Of a stretch of 33,043 bases of DNA, positions 1-33,043 are shown one piece after another. The position numbers were made by a program, and so were the translations under genes. Within the stretch, counting starts at the first letter, position 1; each line of letters opens with the position of its first letter. Under the pieces are notes generated by a model. That model was not told the DNA's origin. It made no database searches and saw only the letters and a list, made by a program, of their open reading frames with translations. Origin of the DNA: Opitutaceae bacterium (GTDB lineage Bacteria; Verrucomicrobiota; Verrucomicrobiia; Opitutales; Opitutaceae); NCBI GenBank assembly GCA_003140665.1, contig PLKS01000272.1:1-33043 (forward strand), in the 5' to 3' direction.

Positions 1-1657
1 CCCCCGCCGTGCCCGCCAGAGTAGTCACGACCCCGGACGGCGTGATCTCGCGGATGTCAAAGTTTCTCTCCTCCGAGACGAATACGTTGCCGCTCCCATC
101 GACCGCGATCCCGGCCGGATAAAAGAACAGCGCGGCGGAGCCCGTCCCGTTGGCGCTGCCTGCGGTCCCCGGGGTGCCAGCGATGGTCGTCACGACCCCG
201 CCCGGCGCGATCTTGCGAATCGCCTGCCCGACCTGGTCGGTGACATACAGGTTGCCGCTTCCGTCCAGGGCGATTCCATAGGGATAGTTGAAATGCGCGG
301 CGGCTCCCGTCCCGTCCACGGTGCCGGCGGCGCCGGGCGTGCCGGCGACGGTGGTGACGACACCGGATGGTGTGATCTTGCGGATCGTGCAATTGGTGTT
401 GTCCACGACATAGAGGTTGCCGCTCGGGTCCAAGGCCATGTCCGTCGGATAATTGAAACGTGCGGAGGAACCCGTCCCGTCGGTGTACCCGGAGCCGGGA
501 GTGCCCGCCAGGGTGGTCACGACGACGCCCGGGGCCATCTTGCGGATCGTGTTGTTGCCGGTGTCCGCAATATAGATGTTGCCGCTGGTATCCGTGCCGA
601 TCCCGAAGGGATAATTGTACTCGGCGGCGGTTCCCGTCCCGTCCACGAAACCCGGGGTCTGCAGAACGCCCGAGATGGTGGTCACCACGCCGCCCGGCGC
701 GATCTTCCGGATCAGGATGTTATCGTAGTCACAGACATACACGTTGCCACTGCCGTCCACCGCCACGCCCTGCGGGGCGTAGAACCGCGCGGCGGCCCCC
801 GTCCCGTCGGTGCTTCCGTTCTTGCCCGCGGTCCCCGCGAGGGTCGTCACCGCGCCCGACGGGGTGATCATGCGGACCGTGCTGTTTCCACCGTCCCCTA
901 TGTAGAGGTTGCCGCTTCCGTCCATCGCTATGGCGGCGGGATAGCGGAAGCGCGCAATAATTCCCTGGCCGTCGATGCTCCCGGGGACCCCCGCTGTGCC
1001 CGCAAAGGTGGTCACGACTCCGGCCGACGTGATCTGGCGGACCGTGTGGTTCACCTGGTCAACGACAAACAGGGTTCCGCTTCCGTTCACCACGACGCCG
1101 ATCGGGTTGTTGAACTGCGCGGCCGCCCCGGTGCCGTCATTGTTGCCGAGGCCCCCCGCGGTCCCCGCGAAGGTGGTCACGACGCCGCCCGGCGTGATCT
1201 TGCGGATCGTGTCGTTGCTCGTGTCCGCGACAAAAACGTTGCCGCTTCCGTCCACGGCGACGCCGAGCGGACTGTTGAACTGCGCGGCCGGTCCCGTCCC
1301 GTCATTGCTTCCGATGACCCCCGGGGTGCCCGCCAGGGTGGTCACGACGCCGGCCGGCGTGACCTTGCGGATCGTGTTGTTCAGCTGGTCCGCGACATAA
1401 ATGTTGCCGCTGGCGTCGGTCGCAACCCCGCCAGGGGCGTAAAATTGCGCGGCGGCCCCCGTCCCGTTCGCTCCGCCGGGCACGTAGGGGGTGCCTGCAA
1501 ACGTGGTGAACGTGTAGGGCGTCGGGTAGACGCTCTGGGCGTGGGCGGCCGGCGCCGGGAGCAGGACCGCGGCGAGGGGCGCAACGAAGCCGACCAGGAA
1601 CCGTGCTGCCGTCTTCAGGGGACGTGAAATGATCATGGGGGTCTGATTGATTGTCAT
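1..1657 (-). CDS. NHL-repeat secreted protein (C-terminal end beyond window start)
   Basis: Reverse-strand frame is open from ATG at 1657 (alternative ATG 1636) to the window edge: MTINQTPMIISRPLKTAARFLVGFVAPLAAVLLPAPAAHAQSVYPTPYTFTTFAGTPYV..., then repeated units of about 55 aa such as GVAVDGSGNVFVADTSNDTIRKITPGGVVTTFAGTAG. Signal peptide-like N-terminus. Not in ORF track because it is truncated. Confidence 0.9.
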   Translation of the reverse strand, partial: MTINQTPMIISRPLKTAARFLVGFVAPLAAVLLPAPAAHAQSVYPTPYTFTTFAGTPYVPGGANGTGAAAQFYAPGGVATDASGNIYVADQLNNTIRKVTPAGVVTTLAGTPGVIGSNDGTGPAAQFNSPLGVAVDGSGNVFVADTSNDTIRKITPGGVVTTFAGTAGGLGNNDGTGAAAQFNNPIGVVVNGSGTLFVVDQVNHTVRQITSAGVVTTFAGTAGVPGSIDGQGIIARFRYPAAIAMDGSGNLYIGDGGNSTVRMITPSGAVTTLAGTAGKNGSTDGTGAAARFYAPQGVAVDGSGNVYVCDYDNILIRKIAPGGVVTTISGVLQTPGFVDGTGTAAEYNYPFGIGTDTSGNIYIADTGNNTIRKMAPGVVVTTLAGTPGSGYTDGTGSSARFNYPTDMALDPSGNLYVVDNTNCTIRKITPSGVVTTVAGTPGAAGTVDGTGAAAHFNYPYGIALDGSGNLYVTDQVGQAIRKIAPGGVVTTIAGTPGTAGSANGTGSAALFFYPAGIAVDGSGNVFVSEERNFDIREITPSGVVTTLAGTAG

Positions 1658-1705: not shown

Positions 1706-3076
1706 TCAGCCGGCGGCGAGTGGCAAAGTGAGGAGAAATGTCGTGCCGCGGGGTCCCGTGGACTCGAGCAGGAGCGTGGCCCCGATCTGCCGCGCAAGCA
1801 GCTGGCTGATCGCGAGGCCGAGGCCCGTGCCCCCCGGGCGGCCGGTGCGGCCCGGCTCGAAGAGATGCGGCCGCAACTCGTCGGAGATGCCGTGCCCCTC
1901 GTCGGAGACCGAGACGGTGGCGGTCTCGCCGCCGTTGCGGAAGGCGACCGCGACGCCGCTGCCCGCGGAGGTCGCGTCGATGGCATTCTGCACGAGGTTG
2001 CTGGTGATCAGGCAGAGCACCCCTCCCCGGTGGCTTCCGAGGCTGTGCTGGAATCCGCCGCTGACGCTCAGGCAAACGCCCTTTTTCACGGCGGCCGCCT
2101 CGTTGCGCTGGCGGACGATGGCGGCGAGCTCGTGCCCGCTGAGCTCAAACGAGGTGTGCGTGTCCGAATCGCCCAGGAGGGCGACCGCATGCTGGATGAT
2201 CGCCTGCATCCGGTCCGTGTACTCGGCGACGGTCTTCCAGTCGGAAGCCGCCTCGCAGCCCGAATCGCGGCCCGCGACCACTCCGCGAAGGCTGGCGACC
2301 GGTCCCTGAAGCCCGTGGATAAGGTGCGAGGTGATCTGGCCCAAGGCCGAGGCCTTTGCGGCAAGCGTCAGCTCAAAGTTCATCTGAACGAGCCGATCAT
2401 TGCGCTCCAGGATGACGCCCTGCGCGCTCCGGAGGCCGAGATAGGCCGCGGCCACGACGACCGCGATGAGCGCGGCCCCGATGCCGAGCGTGGCGGCGGT
2501 CTGGCGGTTGATGCGCTGGTCGATCAGGCTCAGCTCATCGGCAAGCGACCGGGCATAGATGTAGTACTGCGCGAAGCCGACGATTTTCCCGGGCTCGCGG
2601 CCATGGAGCGGAAGCAGCACCTCGAGCACCGGCGTGGCCTGCTGGGAGGGCGTCGCGGCGACGCCCGCGAAGTAGCGGCTGAGCGGAAACTCCGGGAAAA
2701 AGCGGCTTATCGGCTCGAACTTGAGCAGCCGGAGGTAGTCGTCCATGGGCAGCTCGGCAAAAATCAACGAGTCGGGGGCGTACCGCAGGGTGTGGCCCTT
2801 CTCGTCGAAGATGGCCACGCCGAGCATGTTTTCCTGCTGGGCGCTTTCCAGCACGGCGGCGAGCAGGTCGGACGGCCCGGTCGACGCGGCGTAGCGCTGG
2901 GAGAGCTGCCGCTGGGCCACGGGGAGCAGGACCGTGGCGTCGCGGTTGATGATCGTCTGGCGGATTTCCCCGCGAAGCTTGGAGCGGAAAAGCACGACCA
3001 TGGTGGCGAAGATGGCCACGAGCAGGCCCCCGGTGAGGATTGCCAGGATCGGAGGGCGCCAGAATCGCTGATTCAC
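1706..3076 (-). CDS. Membrane sensor histidine kinase
   Basis: 456 aa from a GTG start (MNQRFW...). N-terminal TM, extracytoplasmic region, second TM, H-box-like SHLIHGLQGPVASL, N box LVQNAIDATSAG, G boxes DEGHGISDEL and GGTGLGLAIS, C-terminal GPRGTTFLLTLPL. Confidence 0.92.
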   Translation of the reverse strand: MNQRFWRPPILAILTGGLLVAIFATMVVLFRSKLRGEIRQTIINRDATVLLPVAQRQLSQRYAASTGPSDLLAAVLESAQQENMLGVAIFDEKGHTLRYAPDSLIFAELPMDDYLRLLKFEPISRFFPEFPLSRYFAGVAATPSQQATPVLEVLLPLHGREPGKIVGFAQYYIYARSLADELSLIDQRINRQTAATLGIGAALIAVVVAAAYLGLRSAQGVILERNDRLVQMNFELTLAAKASALGQITSHLIHGLQGPVASLRGVVAGRDSGCEAASDWKTVAEYTDRMQAIIQHAVALLGDSDTHTSFELSGHELAAIVRQRNEAAAVKKGVCLSVSGGFQHSLGSHRGGVLCLITSNLVQNAIDATSAGSGVAVAFRNGGETATVSVSDEGHGISDELRPHLFEPGRTGRPGGTGLGLAISQLLARQIGATLLLESTGPRGTTFLLTLPLAAG

Positions 3077-3122: not shown

Positions 3123-4391
3123 TCAGGGGCGGTGGGTAAACAGGGGCTGTTCTATTTCAATATCCCTCACGCTGTCGTTGAATTGCCGGACAAGGGTCTC
3201 GGCCGACTGGCCGTCCGCCGGCTGGGGGTTTGCGGCGGAGAACTTGGCAAGCTCGCCGCGGATGCTTTCCGCATCCTGGTTGAGAGCCGCTATCTGGGCT
3301 GAATGTTCCATGTTGAAGGCGTCAATGGCCCTGCGCGTCTCGTCGCCCGGCGCCTGCGCCTTGATCTTCGCGGAAAGCTCGTCCTGAAGCGCCGCCCTCT
3401 CCCGCTGGTACTCGGCGATGTGCGCCGCCAGCTTGGGCGGCATCGACGACAGGTCCGGCATGCCGCCGGCAGGCTGGCCCGACAGGAAGCCGGGGGCGGC
3501 GATAAGCGTCGTATCGGAGATCGAATCGTTCCCCCTCGAGTCGACACCGAGGGACTCCGGGGCCCCGACCTCGACGTTCCCCTCGGGAAGCGTCTCGCGG
3601 ATCAGGCGTCCATGGGTCCCCTGGCCGAAATACTGGGATGCATACCTTGAGATCGCCGGGAGCACCTTTTCGAAGTCATTGCCCTGTTCGCGGATGCTGA
3701 AGCGGGTTTCCCATAGCAGCTTGTGTTTCCTCTGCTTCCACAGGACCTGGAAGTCGTAGGCCATCAACACCACGAAATAGCGGTTGTGCTCGATGTCGTC
3801 TACCAGGTCCTCGCGCCTTACGTTGTGGATCAATCCCATGCGGGGCGAATCCACGAGGAGCTCGGGACCGTACCCGAGGATCCCGGCGTTCTCATTGTCT
3901 ATGATGCCACCTTCGAAGCTGACGGGGGCCCAGCTGTCATAGTTGAGGTCCGACCCGTGAGTACCGATTGCCGAGCGGGCGTGGCTGTAGATGCTGAACA
4001 CGAAATTGGCCGAGCCGGGGTCGTTGGTCCCGCTGGTCATCCCCCAGTAGACCATGATCAGCAGCTTCGCCTTGTTGGGGTCCTTGGTCGGCGCGAAGCT
4101 CTGGCCCTTAAGCGGGCCCGCTATGGTCCGCGCGATGTCCATGAAACTCAGCATGTCGATGGTTTCATCGCTGATTGGCGCGCGGTAGTAGCCGCCTTCC
4201 CCGAAGGCGTAGGCCTCGGCCTGGAAGGTGCCGTCCGGGAGCTTTGTCCGGATATAGTCGTCGCTCACCTCCGAGTACACGGCCGTGATCTGGCCAACCG
4301 GTTCCCCGCGGGCGCCTGCTTGGTGGACGAACGGCGCCCCGTAGCCGAGCATGAGGAGCACCGCGGGTTTCAAGGGGCGTGAAAGGCTCAT
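3123..4391 (-). CDS. Secreted paralog 5 of a tandem uncharacterized family, with C-terminal coiled-coil-like extension
   Basis: 422 aa with signal peptide. Shares family motifs TAVYSEVSDDYIRTKLPDGTFQAEAYAFGEGGYY, ISDETIDMLSFMDIARTIAGPL, LLIMVYWGMT, NRYFVVLMAYDFQVLWKQRKHKLLWETRFSI and YASQYFGQ with the four genes upstream. Confidence 0.9.
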   Translation of the reverse strand: MSLSRPLKPAVLLMLGYGAPFVHQAGARGEPVGQITAVYSEVSDDYIRTKLPDGTFQAEAYAFGEGGYYRAPISDETIDMLSFMDIARTIAGPLKGQSFAPTKDPNKAKLLIMVYWGMTSGTNDPGSANFVFSIYSHARSAIGTHGSDLNYDSWAPVSFEGGIIDNENAGILGYGPELLVDSPRMGLIHNVRREDLVDDIEHNRYFVVLMAYDFQVLWKQRKHKLLWETRFSIREQGNDFEKVLPAISRYASQYFGQGTHGRLIRETLPEGNVEVGAPESLGVDSRGNDSISDTTLIAAPGFLSGQPAGGMPDLSSMPPKLAAHIAEYQRERAALQDELSAKIKAQAPGDETRRAIDAFNMEHSAQIAALNQDAESIRGELAKFSAANPQPADGQSAETLVRQFNDSVRDIEIEQPLFTHRP

Positions 4392-4503
4392 TTGGACATG
4401 AATTTGGAAATTGGATCGACTTGGGCCGCATTCCTTCGGGCGGAAAATAGGGGGGCTTCCGCCTGGGGCATCCGGCTCAGTCTTGCACGGGATCCCCCGA
4501 ATG

Positions 4504-4523
4504 ATTGCTCACCGCATGCCAAG
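4504..4523 (-). promoter_or_regulatory. Putative sigma-54 (-24/-12) promoter for gene 3123..4391
   Basis: Minus strand CTTGGCATGCGGTGAGCAAT: TTGGCA at -24 and GG-N10-GC spacing. 18/20 identical to the element at 8593..8612. 113 nt from the start codon. Confidence 0.62.
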
Positions 4524-4650
4524 TCTCCAGACGATAAGGTAATCCATTGATCGTAAGTTGATTAAGCGGGTTGGTTCGGGCAGAAACCCAGCGTACCGAA
4601 GCCCTGCTGGGGTGCTGCAGCAAACTTTGGCGCGCCCGGCCGGGTTCAAT

Positions 4651-4666
4651 TGGGTGTAGGTTCCCA
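4651..4666. promoter_or_regulatory. Candidate activator (UAS) site, imperfect inverted repeat
   Basis: TGGGTGTAGGTTCCCA, with TGGG...CCCA ends. 15/16 identical to 8741..8756 and at the same spacing (128 vs 129 bp) to its promoter element. Confidence 0.5.
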
Positions 4667-4708
4667 CGTCGTTGCCACCATCGCCGGTCCCGAAGGCGCA
4701 GCGGCGCG

Positions 4709-5638
4709 TCATTTTGAAGGTGCCCCGACGACGCCGAGCGAAGTCGGCTCGCCCACCTCGACCTTTCCCTCACGGATCCTCATCCGCGACAACCCATGGC
4801 TGTCCTGGCCGAAGTACTGCGACGCATTCTGGGCCATCACGAGCAGGGCCTTGTCGAATTGATTGCGGCGCTCATCGATGCTGAATCGCGTCTCCCAAAG
4901 CAATTTGTGCTTCTTCTGTTTCCACAGGAGCTGGAAATCATAGGCCATGAGCACCACGAAATACCGGTTCCCCTCGATTTCCGCTATCAACTCATCCCGG
5001 TGGTACTTCATCGGGGTCCTTCGGGCCTCGAGTCCGAAATCGGTCCCGATCACCCCTTCGGAATCGTATCCCAGCATGGCGGCGTTCTTGAAATCGATGA
5101 GGTCGCGTTGGCGGTTCTCCATGTTGAGCTGCACCGTCGCGGCCGAAACCTCCGACATCACGTCATCCTGGATCTGGGGCGGCTCGGGGTTCTGCTTGTT
5201 CATGACTCGGCTGAGATCGGCCTGGGCCATGCTAAAGTTGCTGTACGCGACCGAGTCTGAGGTCGGGCCGGGAACCACGGTTGTCCCCCAATAGAGCATG
5301 ATGAGCAGCCTCGTCTTTTCCGGGTCCCTCGCCGGAAGATATTTCTGGGCCGCCAGCGGGGCCGCGATGACCCGCGCCACGTCCATGAAGCTGAGCTTGT
5401 CGATCGTCGCGTCGCTGATTTCACCCGCCCATCTGCCCCCTTCCCCAAAGCTGTAATACTCCGGCGGGAATGAGCCGTCGGGCAGCTTGGTGCGGACGTA
5501 GTCGCTGCTGACCTTCGAGGACACGGCGGTTATGCCCTCAACGCCTTCGCCCGCCCGGGCGACGGGTAGCGCGCCCAGCAGGATGCCGCAGCCGGCAAGG
5601 AACAAGTCTCTCAGCCGGCGCGCACGTGATGATCTCAT
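4709..5638 (-). CDS. Secreted paralog 4 of tandem uncharacterized family
   Basis: ATG at 5636-5638 (MRSSRARRLRDLFLAGCGILLGALPVARAGEGVEGITAV...), 309 aa. The longer ORF to 5884 is an N-terminal overextension. Overlaps the stop of the upstream gene by 4 nt (ATGA). Confidence 0.9.
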   Translation of the reverse strand: MRSSRARRLRDLFLAGCGILLGALPVARAGEGVEGITAVSSKVSSDYVRTKLPDGSFPPEYYSFGEGGRWAGEISDATIDKLSFMDVARVIAAPLAAQKYLPARDPEKTRLLIMLYWGTTVVPGPTSDSVAYSNFSMAQADLSRVMNKQNPEPPQIQDDVMSEVSAATVQLNMENRQRDLIDFKNAAMLGYDSEGVIGTDFGLEARRTPMKYHRDELIAEIEGNRYFVVLMAYDFQLLWKQKKHKLLWETRFSIDERRNQFDKALLVMAQNASQYFGQDSHGLSRMRIREGKVEVGEPTSLGVVGAPSK

Positions 5639-6561
5639 TTGCTTGGGTTCTCCGTCGTTGGGGCAGCGGCCTTCCCGGGGCCGAACAGGTATTCGACGAG
5701 CGTCGGCTTGCCCACGTCGACCCGCCCCTCGGGCACCCGGATCCTCAGGAGTCCCTTGCTGGGTTGCCCGAAATACCTGGAGGCGTACTCCGCCATCACC
5801 GGCAGCGCCCGGTCGAACTGGTTGCGGCGCTCGTTGATGCTGAAGCGGGTTTCCCAAAGCAGCTTGTGCTTCTTCTGCTTCCACATCAGCTGGAAATCAT
5901 ATGCCATCAGCACGACGAAATACCGGTTTTCCTCGATCTCCTCGATCAGCTCCTGCCTCTTCGCCCCGAACGCGGTTCCACGGATGTTGTTCCCGAAATC
6001 GGTGCCGATCATCCCTTCGGCGTCGTATCCCAGCATGCAGGCGTTCTGGAAATCGAGCCGGTCACGCATCTCGTTGTACATCGCCATGATCGTCAAAGCG
6101 GACGACAGCTCCGCCATCGATGCGTCGCTCCCGCTGATGTTGGCCTGCGCCGCGCTCAGTTCGTTGTAGGCGATCGAGTCGGAAGACGGCCCGGGAACCG
6201 CGGTCGTTCCCCAGTAAAGCATGATGATGAGCTTTGTTCGGCTTGGGTCCGTTGCCGGAAGATAATTCTGCTCCGACAGCGGTGCGGCGACGACCCGCGC
6301 CACGTCCTCGAAGCGGAGCTGGTCGATCGTGGCGTCGCTTATCTCGCCACCCCAATGTCCCCCTTTTCCAAAGGCATAGTATTCCGGCTGGAAGGAGCCG
6401 CCGGGCAGCTTGGTGCGGACGTAGTCGCTGCTCACCCTCGAGACAACGGCGGTGACGCCGTCGACGCCATCCGCAGCGCGGGCGGGCGATAGGGCGGCCA
6501 GCAGCGCGGCGCCGCTGGCAAGGATCAAGGCCTTCCTTCGGAACGCGCGCGATGCCTTCAC
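5635..6561 (-). CDS. Secreted paralog 3 of tandem uncharacterized family
   Basis: GTG at 6559-6561 (MKASRAFRRKALILASGAALLAALSPARAADGVDGVTAV...), 308 aa. Start overlaps the stop of the next upstream gene (GTGA). Confidence 0.9.
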   Translation of the reverse strand: MKASRAFRRKALILASGAALLAALSPARAADGVDGVTAVVSRVSSDYVRTKLPGGSFQPEYYAFGKGGHWGGEISDATIDQLRFEDVARVVAAPLSEQNYLPATDPSRTKLIIMLYWGTTAVPGPSSDSIAYNELSAAQANISGSDASMAELSSALTIMAMYNEMRDRLDFQNACMLGYDAEGMIGTDFGNNIRGTAFGAKRQELIEEIEENRYFVVLMAYDFQLMWKQKKHKLLWETRFSINERRNQFDRALPVMAEYASRYFGQPSKGLLRIRVPEGRVDVGKPTLVEYLFGPGKAAAPTTENPSK

Positions 6562-7541
6562 TTGCTTCCGGTTCCCTTGGCCGGGGCTGCTGAATTCTCG
6601 GTTCCGAACGGGAGCTCGATGACCGTCGGCTCGCCGATGTCGACGCGTCCCTCCGGGAACCGGGTTCTCACCAGTCCATTGGTCGGCTGCCCGAAATACC
6701 TCGAGGCGTATTGCGCCATCGCCGGCAGCGCCTTGTCGAATGCGTTGTGCCTTTCGCTTATGCTGAAACGCGTTTCCCAGAGCAGCCTGTGCTTCTTGTT
6801 CTTCCACATGAGCTGGAAATCGTATGCCATCAGCACCACGAAATACCGGTTCTCCCGGATCTCTGCATATAAGTCGTCCCGGTCCATGCTGAGCGCCGTT
6901 CCCCTGACGTAGTTTCCCCTCTCCGTTCCTATCAGCCCCGGGGAGTCGTAGCCAAGCATCAGGGCATTGGCAAAATCGGTCCGGTCGTTCTGGCGGTTCT
7001 CCATGTTGAGCATCACCGTGGCCGCTGACATTTGATCGATCGCGGCATCGGCAGCCGCGCCGGCGACAACGATTTTCTTGCGTGGGTCGCTGGTGGACGG
7101 AACCAGATACTTGTTGAGGTTGTCTTGCGCCACCTGGAACTGATCGATCGCCACCGAGTCGGAGGTTGGCGCGGGAACCGCGGTGGTCCCCCAGTAGACC
7201 ATTATGAGGAGCCTTGTCTTGTCCGGGTCGGTTGCCGGGAGGTATTTCTGATGAGCAAGTGGCGCGGCTATGACCCGCGCCACGTCGATGAAATGGAGCT
7301 TGTCGATCGTGGCGTCGCTAATTTCGCCAGCCCACCTTCCTCCCTCCCCAAAGGAGTAAGATTCAGCCTGGAACGAGCCGTCGGGCAGCCTGGTGCGAAC
7401 GTAGCCGTCGCTCACCTTCGAGGCCACGGCCGTGATGCCCTCGACGTCTTCGGTCGCGAGGGCGGGAGACGCCGAGCCCAGCAGCACGCCATTGCCGGCG
7501 AGGAGAAGGGCTTTCAGCTGAAACGCACGCGATGCCTTCAT
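6558..7541 (-). CDS. Secreted paralog 2 of tandem uncharacterized family
   Basis: 327 aa, signal peptide MKASRAFQLKALLLAGNGVLLGSASPALA; same conserved N- and C-terminal blocks; ATGA overlap with the upstream paralog. Confidence 0.92.
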   Translation of the reverse strand: MKASRAFQLKALLLAGNGVLLGSASPALATEDVEGITAVASKVSDGYVRTRLPDGSFQAESYSFGEGGRWAGEISDATIDKLHFIDVARVIAAPLAHQKYLPATDPDKTRLLIMVYWGTTAVPAPTSDSVAIDQFQVAQDNLNKYLVPSTSDPRKKIVVAGAAADAAIDQMSAATVMLNMENRQNDRTDFANALMLGYDSPGLIGTERGNYVRGTALSMDRDDLYAEIRENRYFVVLMAYDFQLMWKNKKHRLLWETRFSISERHNAFDKALPAMAQYASRYFGQPTNGLVRTRFPEGRVDIGEPTVIELPFGTENSAAPAKGTGSK

Positions 7542-8482
7542 TTGCCTCCGGCCTCCTTCCCCGGCACTGGCGGCGTGTCGGCCCCGAACAGGAATTCGAC
7601 GAGGGTGGGCTCACCGATGTCGACGCGTCCCTCCGGGAACCGCGTTCTTACCAGCCCATGGGTGGCCTGTCCGAAGTACCGGGACGCGTACTGCGCCATC
7701 GCCGGCAGGGCCTTGTCGAATTGGTTGTGCAGCTCATTGATGCTGAATCGCGTCTCCCAAAGAAGCTTGTGCTTCTTCTGCTTCCACAGGAGCTGGAAGT
7801 CATAGGCCATGATCACGACGAAGTACCGGTTCCCCTCGATCTCGGCGACCTCGTCGTTCGTGCGCCACCCGAGCGCCGTGTGCGAGAGGTACTTCCCATG
7901 GTCCGTCTCGACCAGCCCGTCGTAGTCGTAGCCGATCATCTTCGCGTTCCGGAAATTGAGGAGGTCCCTCTGCCGGTTCGCTATCGCAAGCACGTGGAGC
8001 CCGGCCGTGAGGACGGCGTTGGCTTCATCGGGCTGCCCCTCATCCATGAGCAGCCGGTATTCCTCGAGGGCCTGGTAATATTCCTGGTACAGGGGCGACA
8101 ACTGCGGCGGGTCGGGAACCGCCGTCGTCCCCCAGTAGACCATGATCAGGAGCTTCGTATTGTTTGGGTCCCTCGCGGGCATGTATTTCTGGCCGGCGAG
8201 CGGCTCCGCGATGACCCGGGCCACGTCCATGAAATGAAGCTTGTCGATCGTTGCGTCGCTTATCTGGCCGCCCCAGGTCCCCCCTTCCCCGAACGAATAG
8301 TACTCCGGCTGGAACGAGCCGTCGGGAAGCTTGGTCCGGAAGTAGTCGTCGCTCACCTTTGACGCCACGGCGGTCACGCCCTCGATGCCCTCGATCGCGC
8401 GGACGGGCGACGGGACGCCGAGCACGATGGCGCCGCACGCCAGCAACCCGGCTTTCCTCCGAGGCGTGGGGGATGCCTTCAT
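7538..8482 (-). CDS. Secreted paralog 1 of tandem uncharacterized family
   Basis: 314 aa, signal peptide MKASPTPRRKAGLLACGAIVLGVPSPVRA; conserved blocks as in the other four. First gene of the coupled cluster. Confidence 0.92.
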   Translation of the reverse strand: MKASPTPRRKAGLLACGAIVLGVPSPVRAIEGIEGVTAVASKVSDDYFRTKLPDGSFQPEYYSFGEGGTWGGQISDATIDKLHFMDVARVIAEPLAGQKYMPARDPNNTKLLIMVYWGTTAVPDPPQLSPLYQEYYQALEEYRLLMDEGQPDEANAVLTAGLHVLAIANRQRDLLNFRNAKMIGYDYDGLVETDHGKYLSHTALGWRTNDEVAEIEGNRYFVVIMAYDFQLLWKQKKHKLLWETRFSINELHNQFDKALPAMAQYASRYFGQATHGLVRTRFPEGRVDIGEPTLVEFLFGADTPPVPGKEAGGK

Positions 8483-8592: not shown

Positions 8593-8612
8593 ATTGCTCG
8601 CCGCGTGCCAAG
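8593..8612 (-). promoter_or_regulatory. Putative sigma-54 (-24/-12) promoter for the coupled paralog cluster
   Basis: Minus strand CTTGGCACGCGGCGAGCAAT: exact TTGGCACG -24 box and GG-N10-GC spacing to a GAGCA -12 box (TTGCA expected). 111 nt from the start codon at 8482. Adjacent to a sigma-54 activator gene. Confidence 0.68.
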
Positions 8613-8740
8613 CCCTCCGGTCCTCCGGCCAATGCACTGATGCCACGTTGGTTGGGTGAACCAAATCGTCAAACCCCGCCATTGCCGGGCGTTGCTTTGG
8701 GTGGCTGCCGCAAATTTCTGGCGTCGGCTGCCGCCCCGTT

Positions 8741-8756
8741 TGGGCGTAGGTTCCCA
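8741..8756. promoter_or_regulatory. Candidate activator (UAS) site, imperfect inverted repeat
   Basis: TGGGCGTAGGTTCCCA, near-identical to 4651..4666, 129 bp upstream of the promoter-like element. Confidence 0.5.
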
Positions 8757-8775
8757 AGTCTTCCCACGCGAGAAG

Positions 8776-10191
8776 CTAGGGGGCCGTTTTCCCGCCGGGG
8801 AGGCGGTAGCGGACAAAATCGCGGGTCACGCCCAGGCGGCGCGCCGCCGCGGAAATGTTGTTGCCCGTCTCGCGCAGCGCCTCGGCAATCAGCTCGTCAA
8901 CCGTGGCATCGAGCGAGAAACCGGACTCGGGCATGCGCCATGCCGGGTTGCGCCAGCCGCCCGAGAGCGGGGTGGCCGGGGCGCCCAGCGCGCCGAAGTC
9001 GAAGGCCGTGCTTCCGCCGAAGATGACGGCCCGCTCGATCTCGTGGGCGAGCTCGCGCACGTTGCCCCGCCAGGGCTGCGCGAGCAGGCGGGCCTCGCCC
9101 TCAGGCGCTATCGTCAGCCCCTTCAGCCTGTGCCGCGCGGCGATCTTCGCGAGCAGGTGGCGGGCGAGCGGCAGGATGTCGGTGCCGCGGTCGCGCAACG
9201 GCGGAAGCGTGATCCGCAGGAGGTTCAGGCGATGGAAAAGGTCCTCGCGAAACACGCCCTGCCGCACGAGGTCATCGAGGGGGCGGTTGCTGGCGGCGAC
9301 CACTCGGACATCCACCGAGATCTCGCGCGTGCCGCCGAGCCTGCGGATGTTGCCCTCCTCGACGGCGGTCAGGACCTTGGCCTGCGTCGCCAGGGCCAGC
9401 GAGCCCACCTCATCGAGGAACAGCGTGCCGCCGTCGGCGGCCTCAAAGAGGCCGATCCTGGCCCGCTTCGCGTCGGTGAACGCCCCGCGCTCGTGCCCGA
9501 AGAGCTCCGCCTCGGCGAGGGCGTCGGGCAGCGCCGCGCAGTTCAGGGTGACGAACGGTTCAGCCTGCCTGGGCCCCTGGCGATGCAGCCAGCGGGCGAG
9601 AACGCTCTTTCCCGTCCCGGTTTCGCCCTCGATGAGGACGGGCGGCAGCCGGTGCTCGAGGCGGCGCTCGGCCGCGACAATGGTGTCGAGCTGCGAGCGC
9701 ACACCCCGGAGGCTCTCTCCGAAAAACACCTGGTCGGCGGCCGCGCCGGTCTCCGCGGCGCGATGCTCGGCGCGGCGAGCGGCGATGCGCTGGCTGCGGC
9801 ACCGGGCGAAGGCGAGCGGCAGTTCCTCGGGTTCGAACGGCTTGGACAGGTAGTCGCCCGCGCCCAGGCGGATGGCCTCGACGGCCTGCTTGATGCCGCC
9901 GAAGGCCGTCATCACGACGACGCCGGTGTTCTCCGAGAACGCGCCCTCGCGCAGCAGGCCCAGCACCTCGCCGTCAGGCAGGTGCAGGTCCACCAGCGCG
10001 AATTCGAACCGAAGGTCGCGCAGCTGCCGCCGGGCGTCCTCGAGGCGGCCCGCCTCGGTCACCTCGGCGCCCAGTTGCCGCAGATACGCGGCGAGGCGCT
10101 TGCGGAACGGCGGATCGTCCTCGAGCAGGAGAATCTCGCAGCCCGGCGATAGCGCCGTTCCATCGAACGATGAACTTGGGGTGACTGACAT
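8776..10191 (-). CDS. NtrC-family sigma-54-dependent response regulator
   Basis: 471 aa. Receiver domain (LLLEDDPPFRKRL, ALVDLHLPDGEVL, SKPF), AAA+ domain (Walker A GETGTGKS, GHERGAFTDA, GGTLFLDEVG, FREDLFHRLN), Fis-type HTH (ALRETGNNISAAARRLGVTRDFVRYRL). Confidence 0.96.
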   Translation of the reverse strand: MSVTPSSSFDGTALSPGCEILLLEDDPPFRKRLAAYLRQLGAEVTEAGRLEDARRQLRDLRFEFALVDLHLPDGEVLGLLREGAFSENTGVVVMTAFGGIKQAVEAIRLGAGDYLSKPFEPEELPLAFARCRSQRIAARRAEHRAAETGAAADQVFFGESLRGVRSQLDTIVAAERRLEHRLPPVLIEGETGTGKSVLARWLHRQGPRQAEPFVTLNCAALPDALAEAELFGHERGAFTDAKRARIGLFEAADGGTLFLDEVGSLALATQAKVLTAVEEGNIRRLGGTREISVDVRVVAASNRPLDDLVRQGVFREDLFHRLNLLRITLPPLRDRGTDILPLARHLLAKIAARHRLKGLTIAPEGEARLLAQPWRGNVRELAHEIERAVIFGGSTAFDFGALGAPATPLSGGWRNPAWRMPESGFSLDATVDELIAEALRETGNNISAAARRLGVTRDFVRYRLPGGKTAP

Positions 10192-27167: not shown

Positions 27168-27354
27168 GGGGGCGGGAAACCTGATCCCTAAGTGCCGGAT
27201 TTGCAAGCTGCCAAGGGAATCAGGAAATCAGCGGGTCCAGGGCCCCTTTTCCGGAACTTTCTGGGGTCCGCGGACGACTAAAACCGGCTCATAGGATGCG
27301 GCCGCGACCCGGCATTGCATTTGTCCGCTTTCTCTGTAAGCAGCTTTCTTCTTC

Positions 27355-30300
27355 ATGCCATTCCCTTCGTCCCCAAGAACCCGCCTGCGCGGCATTAGAT
27401 TTGCGGGTTTCCTGCTGCTGGCGGCCACGGGCGCGGCTCTCAACGCCCAGAACCCCAACCCCGCCAACGATGGCTTCGATCCCAACGCGAACGGCATCGT
27501 CAACACTCTGGTGGTGCAGCCGGATGGCAAGATCTTGATGGGAGGGTACTTCACCCAACTTCAACCCTTCGGCGAACCGGTCTCGGGCCATGCCTACGTC
27601 GCGCGCCTGAACCACGACGGGTCGGCGGACACGAGCTTCACTCCAAACGCCAACGGCGTCGTCCGCACCCTGGTGCTCCAGGCAAACGGCCAGATCCTCA
27701 TCGGCGGCAATTTCACGACGATCCAGCCCTCGGGGGGCGGGACGGCGGCCGCCCGCATGTACGCGGCCCGGCTCAACGCCGACGGAAGCCTCGATCCGGT
27801 CTTCAACCCGAACACCAACGGCACGGTCTACGCGATCGCGGTCCAGCCGAACGGCCAGGTCGTGATCGGGGGGTCGTTCACGACCGTCCAGGCCGGCGGC
27901 GCGTCGGCCGCGACGACCCGCAACCACATCGCGAGGCTCAACGCGGACGGATCGCTCGACACGAGCTTCGATCCCAACGCCGACCGGACGGTGCTTTCGC
28001 TCGCGGTCGAGGTCAACGGGCAGGTCGTCGTGGGCGGCGGATTCACCAAGCTTCAACCCAACGGGGCGTCCTCCGCGACGACGCGCAACTGCATCGCGCG
28101 GCTCAATTCCGACGGCTCGCTGGACACCAGCTTTGATCCCGAGGCGAGCGGCAGCGTGAACGCGATCCTGGTGCTCCCGAACGGGCAGATCGTGCTGGGC
28201 GGGGAGTTCGTCAGCTTTCAGCCGAACGGCGCGACGGCCCCGTTCCAGACCGACTTTCTCGCCAGGCTCAACGCCGACGGCACGGTCGACGGGACCTACA
28301 TCGTCAATCCGCTGGCCAGCGTCGAGGCCCTCGCCCTCCAGACCGACGGTAAGCTCCTCATCGGAGGCACCTTCACCTCGGTCTACGCCCAGAACAGCCC
28401 CGCCCCCGAGATCCTCAACTATGCCGCGCGGATAAACACCGACGGGTCGGTCGACGGGTCCTTTGACCCGAATCCCGACCAGGCGGTCAACGCAATCGCG
28501 GTTCAGCAGGATGGGAGCGTAATTCTCGGCGGGTTTTTCGAGGCGATCCAGACAAACGAGGTCGGGGCTTCCATCACCCGCAATTTCATCGCGCGCGTGA
28601 GCGGGGAGGGCTCGCTCGACGCAACGATGGCGCCGGATGGCGCCGGGACCATTTTCGCCGCCGTCCCGCTTTCCAACGGGCAGTTCCTCGTCGGGGGAAA
28701 TTTCCAGAGCATCGCGGGGGTCACACGCGCCTATCTCGCCCGCCTGAATGCCGACGGCTCGCTGGACCCGACGTTCGCCCCGACGCTGAACGGCAGCGTG
28801 CTCTCCATCTCGGTGATGACGAACAACCAGATGATCATCGGGGGCGACTTCACGACTATCGATGGGATTCCCCGCGGCTATGTCGCGCGCCTCAACAGCG
28901 ACGGCACGGTCGACGGCCCGTTCAATCCCAATGCAAACGGCGAGGTGACGCTGGTCGTGCAGCAGTCGAACGGCCAGATCCTCATCAGCGGCTTCTTCTC
29001 GGTGCTCACACCCAACGGGGTGACCACCGGGATCGCGATAGGCGGATTTGCACGGCTCAATACCGACGGCTCGATGGACCTCACCTTCAATCCGAACCCC
29101 ACGGGGGGCCGGGTGCTCGCGATCGACATCCAATCGGACGGCAAGATGCTGGTGGCCGGCGAATTCACCCAGATCGGGGGGGTGGTGCGGGGCTACGTGG
29201 CGCGGCTGCTCTCGACGGGGGCGATCGACACGGTGGACTTCGACCCCGAGGCAAACCTGCCGGTGTACGCGATGGCGGTCCAGTCGGACGGAAAGATAGT
29301 GATCGGCGGCCTGTTCACGTCGGTCATCCCCCAGACGGCCACGCCGGGGAACATCAACAATAACACCACGACGACAAACCAGTACGGAGAAACCGTGACG
29401 CTTCCGCCCCCCGGGGACAGCGCGACGACGCCCATCTACATCAACAAGCTGGCTCGCCTCAACACGGACGGCACGCTCGACACGACGTTCTTCCCGGACC
29501 CAAGCGCCACCGTCCAGGCGATCGCCATCCAGTCGGACGGGTCGATCGTGGTGGGTGGCTCGATGACCTCCTTCGCACAGAATGGCAACCCGACCGGGAC
29601 GATCCGAAACTATATCGGCCGGGTCGAGACCGACGGCACCCTTGACCCGGGGTTCGACCCCGACGCGAACGCCCAGGTCAATGTCATAGACCTGCTTTCA
29701 AACGGGCTCATCCTGATCGGCGGGAGCTTCACGACGCTGCAGCCGAACGGGGCCGCGGCGCCGGTGCAGGCGAACCACGTCGCGATCCTCAATGTGGACG
29801 GTTCCATCTCCCCCTCGTTCTCCGAGGGCGCGAACGCGAGCGCGAACGGCCAGCAGGTCAACGCGTCGGCGCTGCTCCCCGGCGGCCAGATGCTGATCGG
29901 CGGCTCATTCAGCCCGATCGGGGGCGCCCCGGCTTCCAACCTGTGCGTGTTCAATCCCGACGGCACGCCGGACACCGCGTACAACTCGGTCTTTGACGGC
30001 CCGGTGAACGCGATCTCGGTCTCGCCGAAGGGCGCCTCCACCCCCACGTCCACGAGCTACGCCGTATGGCTCGAGTCGACCGGGCTGGTCCGGTACCTGT
30101 ACTCGGCGGCGTCCAACGGGGTGGTATCCGCGGTCCTGCAGCAGTCGGATGGAAAGGTCCTCGTGGGGGGGCTCTTCAGCAGTTTCTCGGGCGCCGGTGG
30201 ATTCCAGAACCTGGTGCGCCTCAATACCGACGGGACGCTGGACACCACGTTCAACCCGGCGCCAAACGGTCAGGTCGCCGCCCTGGCGTTGCAGGCGAAC

Positions 30301-33043
30301 GGCCAGATCCTCGTCGGCGGGTCCTTCACCGCCATAGAAAGCGCCTCCGGCACCTCCTATCCCTATGGCTACCTCGCCAGGCTCAATTCCGACGGGAGCG
30401 TGGACACGAGCTTCAACCCGTCCCCCAACCTGCAGGTAAGCAGCCTCGCGGTCCAGTCCAACGGCCAGATCCTCGCCGGCGGGTATTTCACCGCGGTCGA
30501 GACCGTCTCGTCGACGACGCTGGTGCAGCGCAGCTTCATGGCGAGGTTCAACGCGGACGGGACCCTCGACACGAATTTCAACCCGGATTTCAACGGTGTC
30601 CCATTCGCGATCATCGCCCTCGCGAACGGCCAGATACTGGCCGGCGGGGCGTTCACGGAACTCACGCCAAACGAAACGGGGACCGCCATCACGCAGAACG
30701 GCCTGGCCAGGCTCAATTCCGACGGGACGCTGGACACCACCTTCATCCCCAACCCGAGCGGAACCGTGTATGCGATGGCGGTGCAGCCGAACGGCCAAAT
30801 CCTCGTCGGCGGCAACTTCACCGAGTTCCAGCCGAATCCGACCTACACCACGGTCAACGGCATCCAGACCCCCAGCGGCACCATCTATACCGAGTACTAC
30901 CTTGCCCGCCTCAATCCCAACGGCCTCCCCGACACCACGTTCAGCCCGTACCCGAACTCGTCGGTCACGGCGATCGCGCTGCAACCAAACGGGCAGATCA
31001 TCGTCGGCGGAAATTTCAACGGGTTTTCCCCCAATGGGTCCACCATCCTCACCAACCGCAATTTCATCGCGCGCATCAATGCCGACGGCACGGTCGACCC
31101 GGCGTTCGACCCCGAGCTGAACTCCGCCGCGAACGCGGTCGAGGTGCTGTCGGACGGATCGATATTCGCGGGAGGAAACTTCACGGCCGTCCAGACGGGC
31201 GCCGCGATCCTCGTGGGGGGCTCGTTCACCCACGTGGGCGGGTTCGCCGCGCCCTACTTGGTCCGCCTGAACGCCGACAGCACGGTCGACGGGACGTTCA
31301 CCTCGACGCCGGACGGCCCCGTGAATGCGATCACCGCGCAGAGCACCGGCGGGGTGTATGTCGGCGGGTCCTTCGCCAACATCGCCGGGCAGGCGAGGTC
31401 CGATCTCGCGCACCTCAACCCCGACGGGTCGCTGGACACCTCGTTCAGCGCCAACGCAAACGCGGCGGTGAACGCGATCGCCCTGCAGCCGAACGGCGAG
31501 GCCGTCGTCGGCGGGGCGTTCACGTCCATCGGAGGGCAGCCTGCCGCCTATGTCGCGAGGCTGGGGCCGACGGGAACGCCCGACACCTCGTTCGCAGCCT
31601 CGGTCAACGGCACCGTCAATGCGATCGTGGTCCAGCCCAACGGCCAGATCGTCATCGGCGGGGCGTTCACGAGCGTCGGTGGCCAGCCGGAAGGCGGGAT
31701 GGCGAGGCTCAACAGCGACGGATCCCTCGACACGACCTTCAGCCCGAACGCAAACGGAACCGTCCAGGCGGTGACGCAGCAGGTTGACGGCACCTTCTTT
31801 GCGGGCGGCTCCTTCACGACCATCGGGGGGCAGCCCATCGCCTACATCGCGCACATCGAGGCCAGCGGCGCGGTCGACACCACGTTCAATCCCGTCCCCA
31901 ACGGCCCGGTTTACGGCATCCTTGTCCAGCCCGACGGCAAGGTCGTACTCGGCGGGAGCTTCACGACGGTGGGCGGCCAGACCCGCTATCTGCTGGCGCG
32001 CCTTTCCACGCAGAACGCCGTGACGCAATCCCTCCTGGTGAGCGCGGACGAGACGACCATCACGTGGATGCGCGGCGGCGGATCCCCCTCGCTCGCGTCG
32101 GTCGTGTTTGAGGAATCGACGGACGGCACGCACTTCACGACCACGGCCCAGGCGACGTCCCTCGACGGGTCGACATGGCAGGTCACGGGCGTCACCCCGG
32201 AGGGCCCGACGTCCTTCTACGTGCTCGCGATCGGCGTCGCACCCACGTCCCGGTACAGCTCGTCCGGCCTCATCGAGACGACCGCGGCGGTGAATGTCCT
32301 GGCGATCCCGGTCGTCAACTCCGCGGCGCAGGCGTCCGGCAATTCGGGAACGCCCTTCAGCTTCACGGTGACGGCCACCCAGTCGCCGACGTCCTTCGCG
32401 GCCTCGGGCCTTCCGCCCGGGCTCAGCATCAATTCGTCGACCGGCCTGATTTCCGGGACCCCGACGGGGGTCGGAACCTACAACGTCACGGTGACGGTCA
32501 GCAATTCCAGCGGCTATTCGACGTCCAACCTGACGATTGCGATCGGCCCGTCGAGCGGCACCTCGTACGCCCCTTCCCCGTCCTCCTCCAGCGACCGGCT
32601 TCTCAACCTGTCATGCCGCGCCGACCTGAGCGGCAGCAGCGTCCTGATCGCCGGGTTCGTCATCTCGGGAACCGGCCAGAAGACCCTGCTCCTAAGGGCC
32701 GTGGGGCCCGGCCTTTCGGCCTTCGGCGTCCCCGGCGTCATGGCGGCACCGGAACTGCAGCTTTATTCGGGGACGGGCGCGCTGCTCGCGCAGAACAGCC
32801 TATGGGGCGGAAGCGCCAGCCTTTCGGCGACGTTCGCGCAGGTCGGGGCCTTCGCGCTCTCGCCGACCAGCGCCGACGCGGCGACCGTGGTCAGCCTTTC
32901 CCCCGGCCCCTATACGCTCCATGTGTTCGATCCCTCGGGAGCGGGAGGCGTGGTCCTCACCGAGATCTATGACGCGAGCGCGTCCCCGCTCGCGGCCGCG
33001 CAGCGCCTCGTGAACATCTCGGCCAGGGGCTCGGTGAGCCCCG
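27355..33043 (+). CDS. Giant secreted delta-60 repeat protein with He_PIG-like domain (3' end beyond window)
   Basis: Open frame from ATG 27355 (MPFPSSPRTRLRGIRFAGFLLLAATGAALNAQ...) to window end. About 28 units of the type ARLNxDGSLDTSFNPNxNGxVxAIAVQPNGQILVGGSF by eye, then IPVVNSAAQASGNSGTPFSFTVTATQ..GLPPGLSINSSTGLISGTPTGVGTYNVTVTVSN (putative Ig) and a verrucomicrobial-type C-terminal module FVISGTGQKTLLLRAVGPGLSAFGV. Confidence 0.93.
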   Translation, partial: MPFPSSPRTRLRGIRFAGFLLLAATGAALNAQNPNPANDGFDPNANGIVNTLVVQPDGKILMGGYFTQLQPFGEPVSGHAYVARLNHDGSADTSFTPNANGVVRTLVLQANGQILIGGNFTTIQPSGGGTAAARMYAARLNADGSLDPVFNPNTNGTVYAIAVQPNGQVVIGGSFTTVQAGGASAATTRNHIARLNADGSLDTSFDPNADRTVLSLAVEVNGQVVVGGGFTKLQPNGASSATTRNCIARLNSDGSLDTSFDPEASGSVNAILVLPNGQIVLGGEFVSFQPNGATAPFQTDFLARLNADGTVDGTYIVNPLASVEALALQTDGKLLIGGTFTSVYAQNSPAPEILNYAARINTDGSVDGSFDPNPDQAVNAIAVQQDGSVILGGFFEAIQTNEVGASITRNFIARVSGEGSLDATMAPDGAGTIFAAVPLSNGQFLVGGNFQSIAGVTRAYLARLNADGSLDPTFAPTLNGSVLSISVMTNNQMIIGGDFTTIDGIPRGYVARLNSDGTVDGPFNPNANGEVTLVVQQSNGQILISGFFSVLTPNGVTTGIAIGGFARLNTDGSMDLTFNPNPTGGRVLAIDIQSDGKMLVAGEFTQIGGVVRGYVARLLSTGAIDTVDFDPEANLPVYAMAVQSDGKIVIGGLFTSVIPQTATPGNINNNTTTTNQYGETVTLPPPGDSATTPIYINKLARLNTDGTLDTTFFPDPSATVQAIAIQSDGSIVVGGSMTSFAQNGNPTGTIRNYIGRVETDGTLDPGFDPDANAQVNVIDLLSNGLILIGGSFTTLQPNGAAAPVQANHVAILNVDGSISPSFSEGANASANGQQVNASALLPGGQMLIGGSFSPIGGAPASNLCVFNPDGTPDTAYNSVFDGPVNAISVSPKGASTPTSTSYAVWLESTGLVRYLYSAASNGVVSAVLQQSDGKVLVGGLFSSFSGAGGFQNLVRLNTDGTLDTTFNPAPNGQVAALALQANGQILVGGSFTAIESASGTSYPYGYLARLNSDGSVDTSFNPSPNLQVSSLAVQSNGQILAGGYFTAVETVSSTTLVQRSFMARFNADGTLDTNFNPDFNGVPFAIIALANGQILAGGAFTELTPNETGTAITQNGLARLNSDGTLDTTFIPNPSGTVYAMAVQPNGQILVGGNFTEFQPNPTYTTVNGIQTPSGTIYTEYYLARLNPNGLPDTTFSPYPNSSVTAIALQPNGQIIVGGNFNGFSPNGSTILTNRNFIARINADGTVDPAFDPELNSAANAVEVLSDGSIFAGGNFTAVQTGAAILVGGSFTHVGGFAAPYLVRLNADSTVDGTFTSTPDGPVNAITAQSTGGVYVGGSFANIAGQARSDLAHLNPDGSLDTSFSANANAAVNAIALQPNGEAVVGGAFTSIGGQPAAYVARLGPTGTPDTSFAASVNGTVNAIVVQPNGQIVIGGAFTSVGGQPEGGMARLNSDGSLDTTFSPNANGTVQAVTQQVDGTFFAGGSFTTIGGQPIAYIAHIEASGAVDTTFNPVPNGPVYGILVQPDGKVVLGGSFTTVGGQTRYLLARLSTQNAVTQSLLVSADETTITWMRGGGSPSLASVVFEESTDGTHFTTTAQATSLDGSTWQVTGVTPEGPTSFYVLAIGVAPTSRYSSSGLIETTAAVNVLAIPVVNSAAQASGNSGTPFSFTVTATQSPTSFAASGLPPGLSINSSTGLISGTPTGVGTYNVTVTVSNSSGYSTSNLTIAIGPSSGTSYAPSPSSSSDRLLNLSCRADLSGSSVLIAGFVISGTGQKTLLLRAVGPGLSAFGVPGVMAAPELQLYSGTGALLAQNSLWGGSASLSATFAQVGAFALSPTSADAATVVSLSPGPYTLHVFDPSGAGGVVLTEIYDASASPLAAAQRLVNISARGSVSP

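Follow-up and report, generated by a model that had tools for sequence, protein, structure and literature searches.

The stretch of DNA analysed (33,043 nucleotides, henceforth referred to as the window) corresponds to contig 15 in a draft genome assembly of 3.85 Mb (G000). Its minus strand carries, in this order, a regulator gene, the target genes T1 to T4, a further target gene T5, a kinase gene and an NHL-repeat gene. One conserved dyad lies in the gap between the regulator gene and T1 and another in the gap between T4 and T5, each as the distal element (D1) of a module. The features are listed below in the order of the minus strand.

8776..10191, minus strand: NtrC-type response regulator, the proposed activator, with receiver, sigma-54 AAA+ (GAFTDA loop) and Fis HTH domains
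8740..8757, minus strand: D1, distal dyad of module 1, TTGGGAACCTACGCCCAA; includes 8741-8756
8697..8714, minus strand: D2, degenerate second site of module 1, TTTGCGGCAGCCACCCAA; 43 bp after D1
8630..8652, minus strand: conserved AT-rich element in the spacer of module 1, putatively IHF/HU-like
8595..8611, minus strand: sigma-54-type -24/-12 promoter of module 1, TTGGCACGCGGCGAGCA, first base 8611
7538..8482, minus strand: T1, first target gene, exported product with a TraT/PelC/DUF4136-like predicted fold
6558..7541, minus strand: T2, paralogue, 4-bp overlap with T1
5635..6561, minus strand: T3, paralogue, 4-bp overlap with T2; presumed start codon
4709..5638, minus strand: T4, paralogue, 4-bp overlap with T3; presumed start codon
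4650..4667, minus strand: D1, distal dyad of module 2, GTGGGAACCTACACCCAA; includes 4651-4666
4607..4624, minus strand: D2 of module 2, TTTGCTGCAGCACCCCAG; 43 bp after D1
4541..4563, minus strand: conserved AT-rich element in the spacer of module 2; shares positions with GATCAATGGATTA, which matches the IHF consensus with one mismatch
4506..4522, minus strand: sigma-54-type -24/-12 promoter of module 2, TTGGCATGCGGTGAGCA, first base 4522
3123..4391, minus strand: T5, paralogue extended at the C-terminus, the first gene behind module 2
1706..3076, minus strand: membrane histidine kinase, the proposed partner of the regulator, kept near the regulator gene in relatives
1..1657, minus strand: exported NHL-repeat protein gene, directly after the kinase gene; runs off the window

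Repeat-rich open frames of similar appearance to the NHL-repeat gene were also observed on both strands at about 27300-32100 of the window.

Module anatomy and the AT-rich element

The dyads were initially reported, in a sequence-only reading of the window, as two 16-mers a single base apart, located 128 and 129 bp from the -24/-12 elements. Both are present, TGGGTGTAGGTTCCCA at 4651-4666 and TGGGCGTAGGTTCCCA at 8741-8756, and the distances are as given. The same reading had noticed no other copy in the window, and a search allowing up to 3 mismatches returned one extra match only (15762, 3 mismatches); none of 100 shuffles of the window contained 3 matches to the 16-mer at this threshold. An 18-mer describes the conserved dyad better: read on the minus strand it is TTGGGAACCTACRCCCAA, with G in place of the first T at 4650-4667, and the other copy lies at 8740-8757. 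Only the arms of D1 are symmetric, the palindrome amounting to 5/9 for module 1 and 4/9 for module 2. Further to what had been reported, a second site was identified 43 bp downstream of each dyad, together with another complete copy, the third, outside the window (contig 102, C102) and conservation in other genera. The site is larger than first described, and each dyad is read as the stronger half of a putative paired site.

The sequence-only reading had named a background frequency of the motif genome-wide as a refutation of its inference, but the counts obtained leave that inference standing. The bare 16-mer at up to 3 mismatches did occur near background (76 matches vs 66 in the reversed control), so the dyad alone is uninformative at that threshold; the full module, defined as TGGGN8CCCA followed by a -24/-12 core at 115-142 bp, is informative. 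The full-module pattern was found in exactly 3 places in the genome, all upstream of one gene family, and nowhere (0) in the reversed-pattern control. The third module, unlinked to the window, has its D1 127 bp from the promoter TTGGCATGCCATGAGCA and precedes a paralogue 69% identical to T1, probably in a divergent intergenic region.

On the minus strand the module runs from D1 (TTGGG-N8-CCCAA) through D2 and the AT-rich spacer element to the -24/-12 promoter. Five modules from two species, three from this genome and two from a relative (G008), were aligned in register. In all five, D2 (TTTGCnGCAnnCACCCA, with one good half) starts exactly 43 bp past the start of D1, and D1 lies 127-128 bp from the promoter. 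Mean pairwise identity among the five modules was 0.79 for D1, 0.76 for D2 and 0.81 for the promoter, as compared to 0.34, 0.36 and 0.49 in the spacers and 0.27-0.28 outside the module.

The AT-rich element was delineated by aligning 24 modules on the promoter alone, with 500 shuffles serving as control. Conserved columns relative to the promoter were AA at -41/-40 (16/24 and 21/24), TT at -34/-33, A at -25 and TT at -20/-19; single-column information reached up to 1.26 bits, compared to at most 0.88 bits in any column of the 500 shuffles, and columns -12 to -2 of the 24 modules stayed below 0.2 bits. The resulting AA-N5-TT-N7-A-N4-TT element is positioned between enhancer and promoter and is kept across genera. 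The IHF consensus WATCARN4TTR, which resembles part of this element, was matched with at most 1 mismatch in 12 of the 24 spacers vs 4.3 expected, and the AT-rich element may be viewed as a candidate IHF/HU-like bend site.

Conservation across Opitutales

Regulator orthologues were collected from whole genomes and the DNA downstream of their stop codons was examined at 60 loci. A dyad was present within -40..+130 of the regulator stop codon at 26 of the 60 loci, drawn from 17 genera and 6 families, vs a mean of 0.67 and a maximum of 3 expected from 200 dinucleotide shuffles. The shuffles ignore the relatedness of the genomes; control positions share that relatedness and hence correct for it, and these contained a dyad in 0/56 and 1/60 cases. 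The post-stop position of the remaining 34 loci yielded no dyad, several of them having the next gene immediately adjoining or a diverged site.

A second dyad was detected under the same criterion in 12 cases, and its distance to the first one was 42-44 bp in 11 of them and 33 bp in the twelfth. A -24/-12-like sequence follows the dyad in 23 of the 26 loci, at a gap of 75-76 or 81-86 bp for the proximal site and 114-119 or 125-130 bp for the distal site. This geometry is unusually fixed for an NtrC-type enhancer and σ54 promoter. When all distances were examined for helical phasing, a period of 10.5 bp gave R = 0.61. Periods of 8.5-9 and of 11 fitted equally well, and helical phasing is therefore not claimed. 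Autoregulation via a dyad upstream of the regulator gene was considered and discarded, as candidates were seen in 3 of the 60 loci only and formed no pattern.

The letters of the site drift between lineages. Distant relatives carry the near-perfect palindrome TTGGGGAATATTTCCCAA, while closer relatives have different inner bases, e.g. TTGGTTGCCTACAACCAA or TTGGCTGCATTCAGCCAA; the outer TGG...CCA arms are kept. A broader reading, put forward tentatively and less likely to hold than to fail, is that a rigid architecture (dyads 42-44 bp apart, distal and proximal dyads 125-130 bp and 82-85 bp from the promoter, and a positioned IHF/HU-like element) is kept across genera and families while the site itself drifts (TTGGGGAATATTTCCCAA, TTGGTTG...CAACCAA, TTGGCTG...CAGCCAA). 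If true, selection would preserve the spatial layout of the looped complex to a greater degree than the base sequence, unlike in the distance-tolerant textbook NtrC enhancers.

The regulator and its candidate sites

The regulator matches four Pfam models above their cut-offs (PF00072, PF00158, PF25601 and PF02954). Its σ54-contact loop reads GAFTDA, not GAFTGA, and nearly all orthologues are alike in this respect. A Desulfovibrio survey places GAFTDA in the group of variants predicted to retain activity and gives one example from Desulfovibrio (PMC4641369); VfmH, which also carries GAFTDA, failed to pull down sigma-54 (PMC10714721). A sigma-54 gene is present in the genome (PF04552 at contig 130, C130, 106 bits), interrupted by the contig end. 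Most orthologues share the recognition helix R(D/E)(F/Y)(L/V/I)RYR, and the persistence of the outer arms of the site is in line with this conserved helix. No useful relative of the regulator was found on viral contigs.

The sequence-only reading had assigned the dyads to this regulator as its binding sites. As a candidate assignment this gained support from the conservation of the elements, the dyads at orthologue loci, the domains of the regulator, its conserved recognition helix and the sigma-54 gene. With considerable confidence, the dyads are read here as the strong distal halves of tandem upstream activating sequences for the regulator at 8776-10191, which would activate σ54 promoters.

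The main uncertainty over which protein binds is a second regulator encoded in the same genome. A second regulator/kinase pair lies on contig 78 (G000:C78, L154), its regulator 67% identical to that of the window (contig 15, C15) and its kinase related; a different exported protein is encoded between the two genes at that locus. There is a small but real chance that the sites are used by the C78 regulator or are common to both regulators, given that the recognition helices are nearly alike (GVTRDFVRYRL vs GVTREFLRYRL) and that orthologues with a C78-type helix also carry TGG...CCA dyads (L157, L175). Nonetheless, the sites adjoin the C15 regulator, nearly the same site sequences accompany the C15-type regulator of G008 (82% identical), and the DNA after the C78 regulator gene yielded no such dyad. 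Binding by the C15 regulator is preferred on these grounds.

Three other explanations were each judged very improbable. The genes behind the modules are paralogous (46-69% identical), and the dyads might have been kept merely through co-duplication of their upstream regions, without any function. The sequence between and around the elements is only 27-49% identical, whereas D1, D2 and the promoter are 76-81% identical, which argues for a footprint and not merely a duplicated block; moreover, the same type of dyad stands beside orthologous regulators in other families, ahead of unrelated exported proteins. Functionless duplication was rejected on the basis of this spacer divergence. The location of the dyads 18 bp past the regulator stop codon and 42 bp past T4, with arms that could pair as a 4-5 bp stem, would suit a transcription terminator or RNA hairpin, which was hardly credible and was rejected for want of a U-tract or any terminator call within 4380-4720; at C102 the intergenic region around the copy is probably a divergent one, and a terminator would leave both the fixed distance to the σ54 promoter and the second site at 43 bp unexplained. 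Finally, activator binding is deduced from sequence comparison, and a repressor or nucleoid protein could in principle occupy the sites in place of an NtrC-type activator, but such a factor would scarcely be expected to co-occur with a single regulator lineage over 17 genera at promoter distances of 75-130 bp, which are those of sigma-54 enhancers.

Target genes, proposed mechanism and known systems

No Pfam or NCBIfam model scored above its cut-off with any of the five T proteins. The T family gave 25 tblastn matches in G000 (contigs 42, 102, 116, 159, 212, 245 and others) and more in relatives, which are mostly uncultured Opitutaceae (Verrucomicrobiota), several of them from palsa, bog and fen samples. 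An AlphaFold model of the family, built from 35 sequences, had a pLDDT of 81. Foldseek matched it to TraT (E 1e-5, prob 1.00) but with a low TM of ~0.3, and VIA-align gave Z scores of 7-9 to PelC, DUF4136 and TraT. The predicted model most resembles TraT, PelC and DUF4136 proteins, a lead at the level of the fold only.

T-family genes in other Opitutaceae are likewise preceded by modules, in which D1 lies 125-128 bp from a -24/-12 promoter, D2 lies 82-85 bp from it, or both (L256, L259, L261, L262, L272, L280, L286 and L217). D1 lies at 127 bp in L256 and L280 and at 127-128 bp in L259 and L261, the latter two with D2 at 85 bp; L272 has D1 at 127 bp and a second dyad 43 bp on, and L262 a dyad at 84 bp. 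L286 also carries a module, as does L217, a diverged T-like gene in G011. The contig of L280 (PLKR01000254.1) is labelled Acidobacteriaceae; the module of this T-family gene is of the typical Opitutaceae kind, and a binning error or a transfer is possible. Most of the 78 T-family starts scanned had no recognisable module, which restricts the putative regulon to a part of the family.

Which gene follows the module differs by lineage; in every case read it encodes an exported protein. In distant relatives the module precedes exported proteins unrelated to the T family, and the small exported proteins encoded there between regulator and kinase showed no convincing Pfam family. In G008 a related NHL-repeat gene has its own D1-D2-sigma-54 module, which parallels the NHL-repeat gene following the kinase gene of the window. 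These comparisons, spanning an entire order, indicate that the putative modules activate exported envelope proteins of a family specific to the lineage. An earlier proposal linked σ54 in general to the bacterial exterior (PMC3162934).

The distant relative G139 (L236) has a tandem-dyad module ahead of an LTXXQ-family gene. The LTXXQ family is commonly taken to include CpxP, Spy and ZraP, and the gene behind the G139 module hints at a possible control of envelope stress.

From the sequence conservation, geometry, gene context, protein domains and sigma-54 gene observed, a mechanism can be proposed in which binding, phosphorylation, looping, bending, cooperativity, operon extents, the signal and kinase feedback are inferred, as is a role in envelope homeostasis. 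The membrane kinase (1706-3076) would phosphorylate the regulator, which would bind D1 with high affinity and cooperatively recruit a second regulator dimer to the weak D2, 43 bp (~ four helical turns) from D1. With the AT-rich IHF/HU-like bend site as an aid, the bound activator would then assemble and be looped onto the -24/-12 promoter, which lies 127-128 bp from D1, and would there open sigma-54 RNA polymerase at the expense of ATP. Module 1 would drive a T1-T4 operon, and module 2 would drive T5, the kinase gene and probably the NHL-repeat gene; with the kinase under module 2, positive feedback on the sensor is proposed. The unlinked C102 module would drive another paralogue.

Such a regulon would tie a hitherto uncharacterised pair of kinase and regulator, retained in much of a Verrucomicrobiota order, to a defined DNA site and to a definite set of exported proteins, including a family without a Pfam entry. 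The site is short and can be tested in vitro, so that the regulon could be mapped by DAP-seq without culture, and the fixed two-site geometry offers a natural variant set for studying enhancer loops.

The arrangement resembles the NtrC-type enhancers of the glnA, zraP and atoD type in having a conserved dyad-symmetric site ~75-130 bp upstream of a -24/-12 promoter, as expected of an NtrC-type upstream activating sequence, and an activator with receiver, sigma-54 AAA+ and Fis-HTH domains. It differs from them in the site, TTGG(G)...(C)CCAA, in the presence of two sites 42-44 bp apart at near-fixed promoter distances across much of the order, and in its targets, a lineage-specific exported protein family. 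No σ54 activator with its site was described for this group in the literature searched, and one may exist elsewhere.

Closest in logic is PrsK/PrsR of PEP-CTERM genes, likewise an NtrC-type regulator/kinase pair with a conserved, sometimes repeated, upstream motif and a sigma-54 promoter before many exported proteins (Haft et al. 2006, PMC1569441). Unlike the site described here, Motif 1 of PrsK/PrsR ends in TTTACA, lies ~63 bp from the promoter and was reported in Proteobacteria only (PMC1569441). Membership of that system was rejected, the regulator scoring 283.9 bits vs the TIGR02915 (PrsR) cut-off of 502.6, the kinase 70.3 bits vs the TIGR02916 (PrsK) cut-off of 300, and the five T proteins matching no PEP-CTERM model. 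The ZraSR/ZraP envelope-stress system is similar in its sigma-54-dependent response regulator, membrane kinase and adjoining small exported proteins; its gene order and site sequence differ from those described here, the regulator scored 264.8 bits vs the NF007689 equivalog cut-off of 760 for ZraR, and the kinase fell below the cut-off for ZraS. The NtrC-type design, taken together with the failed assignments to PrsR, PrsK, PEP-CTERM and ZraR, points to a σ54 regulon of Opitutales with a site of its own.
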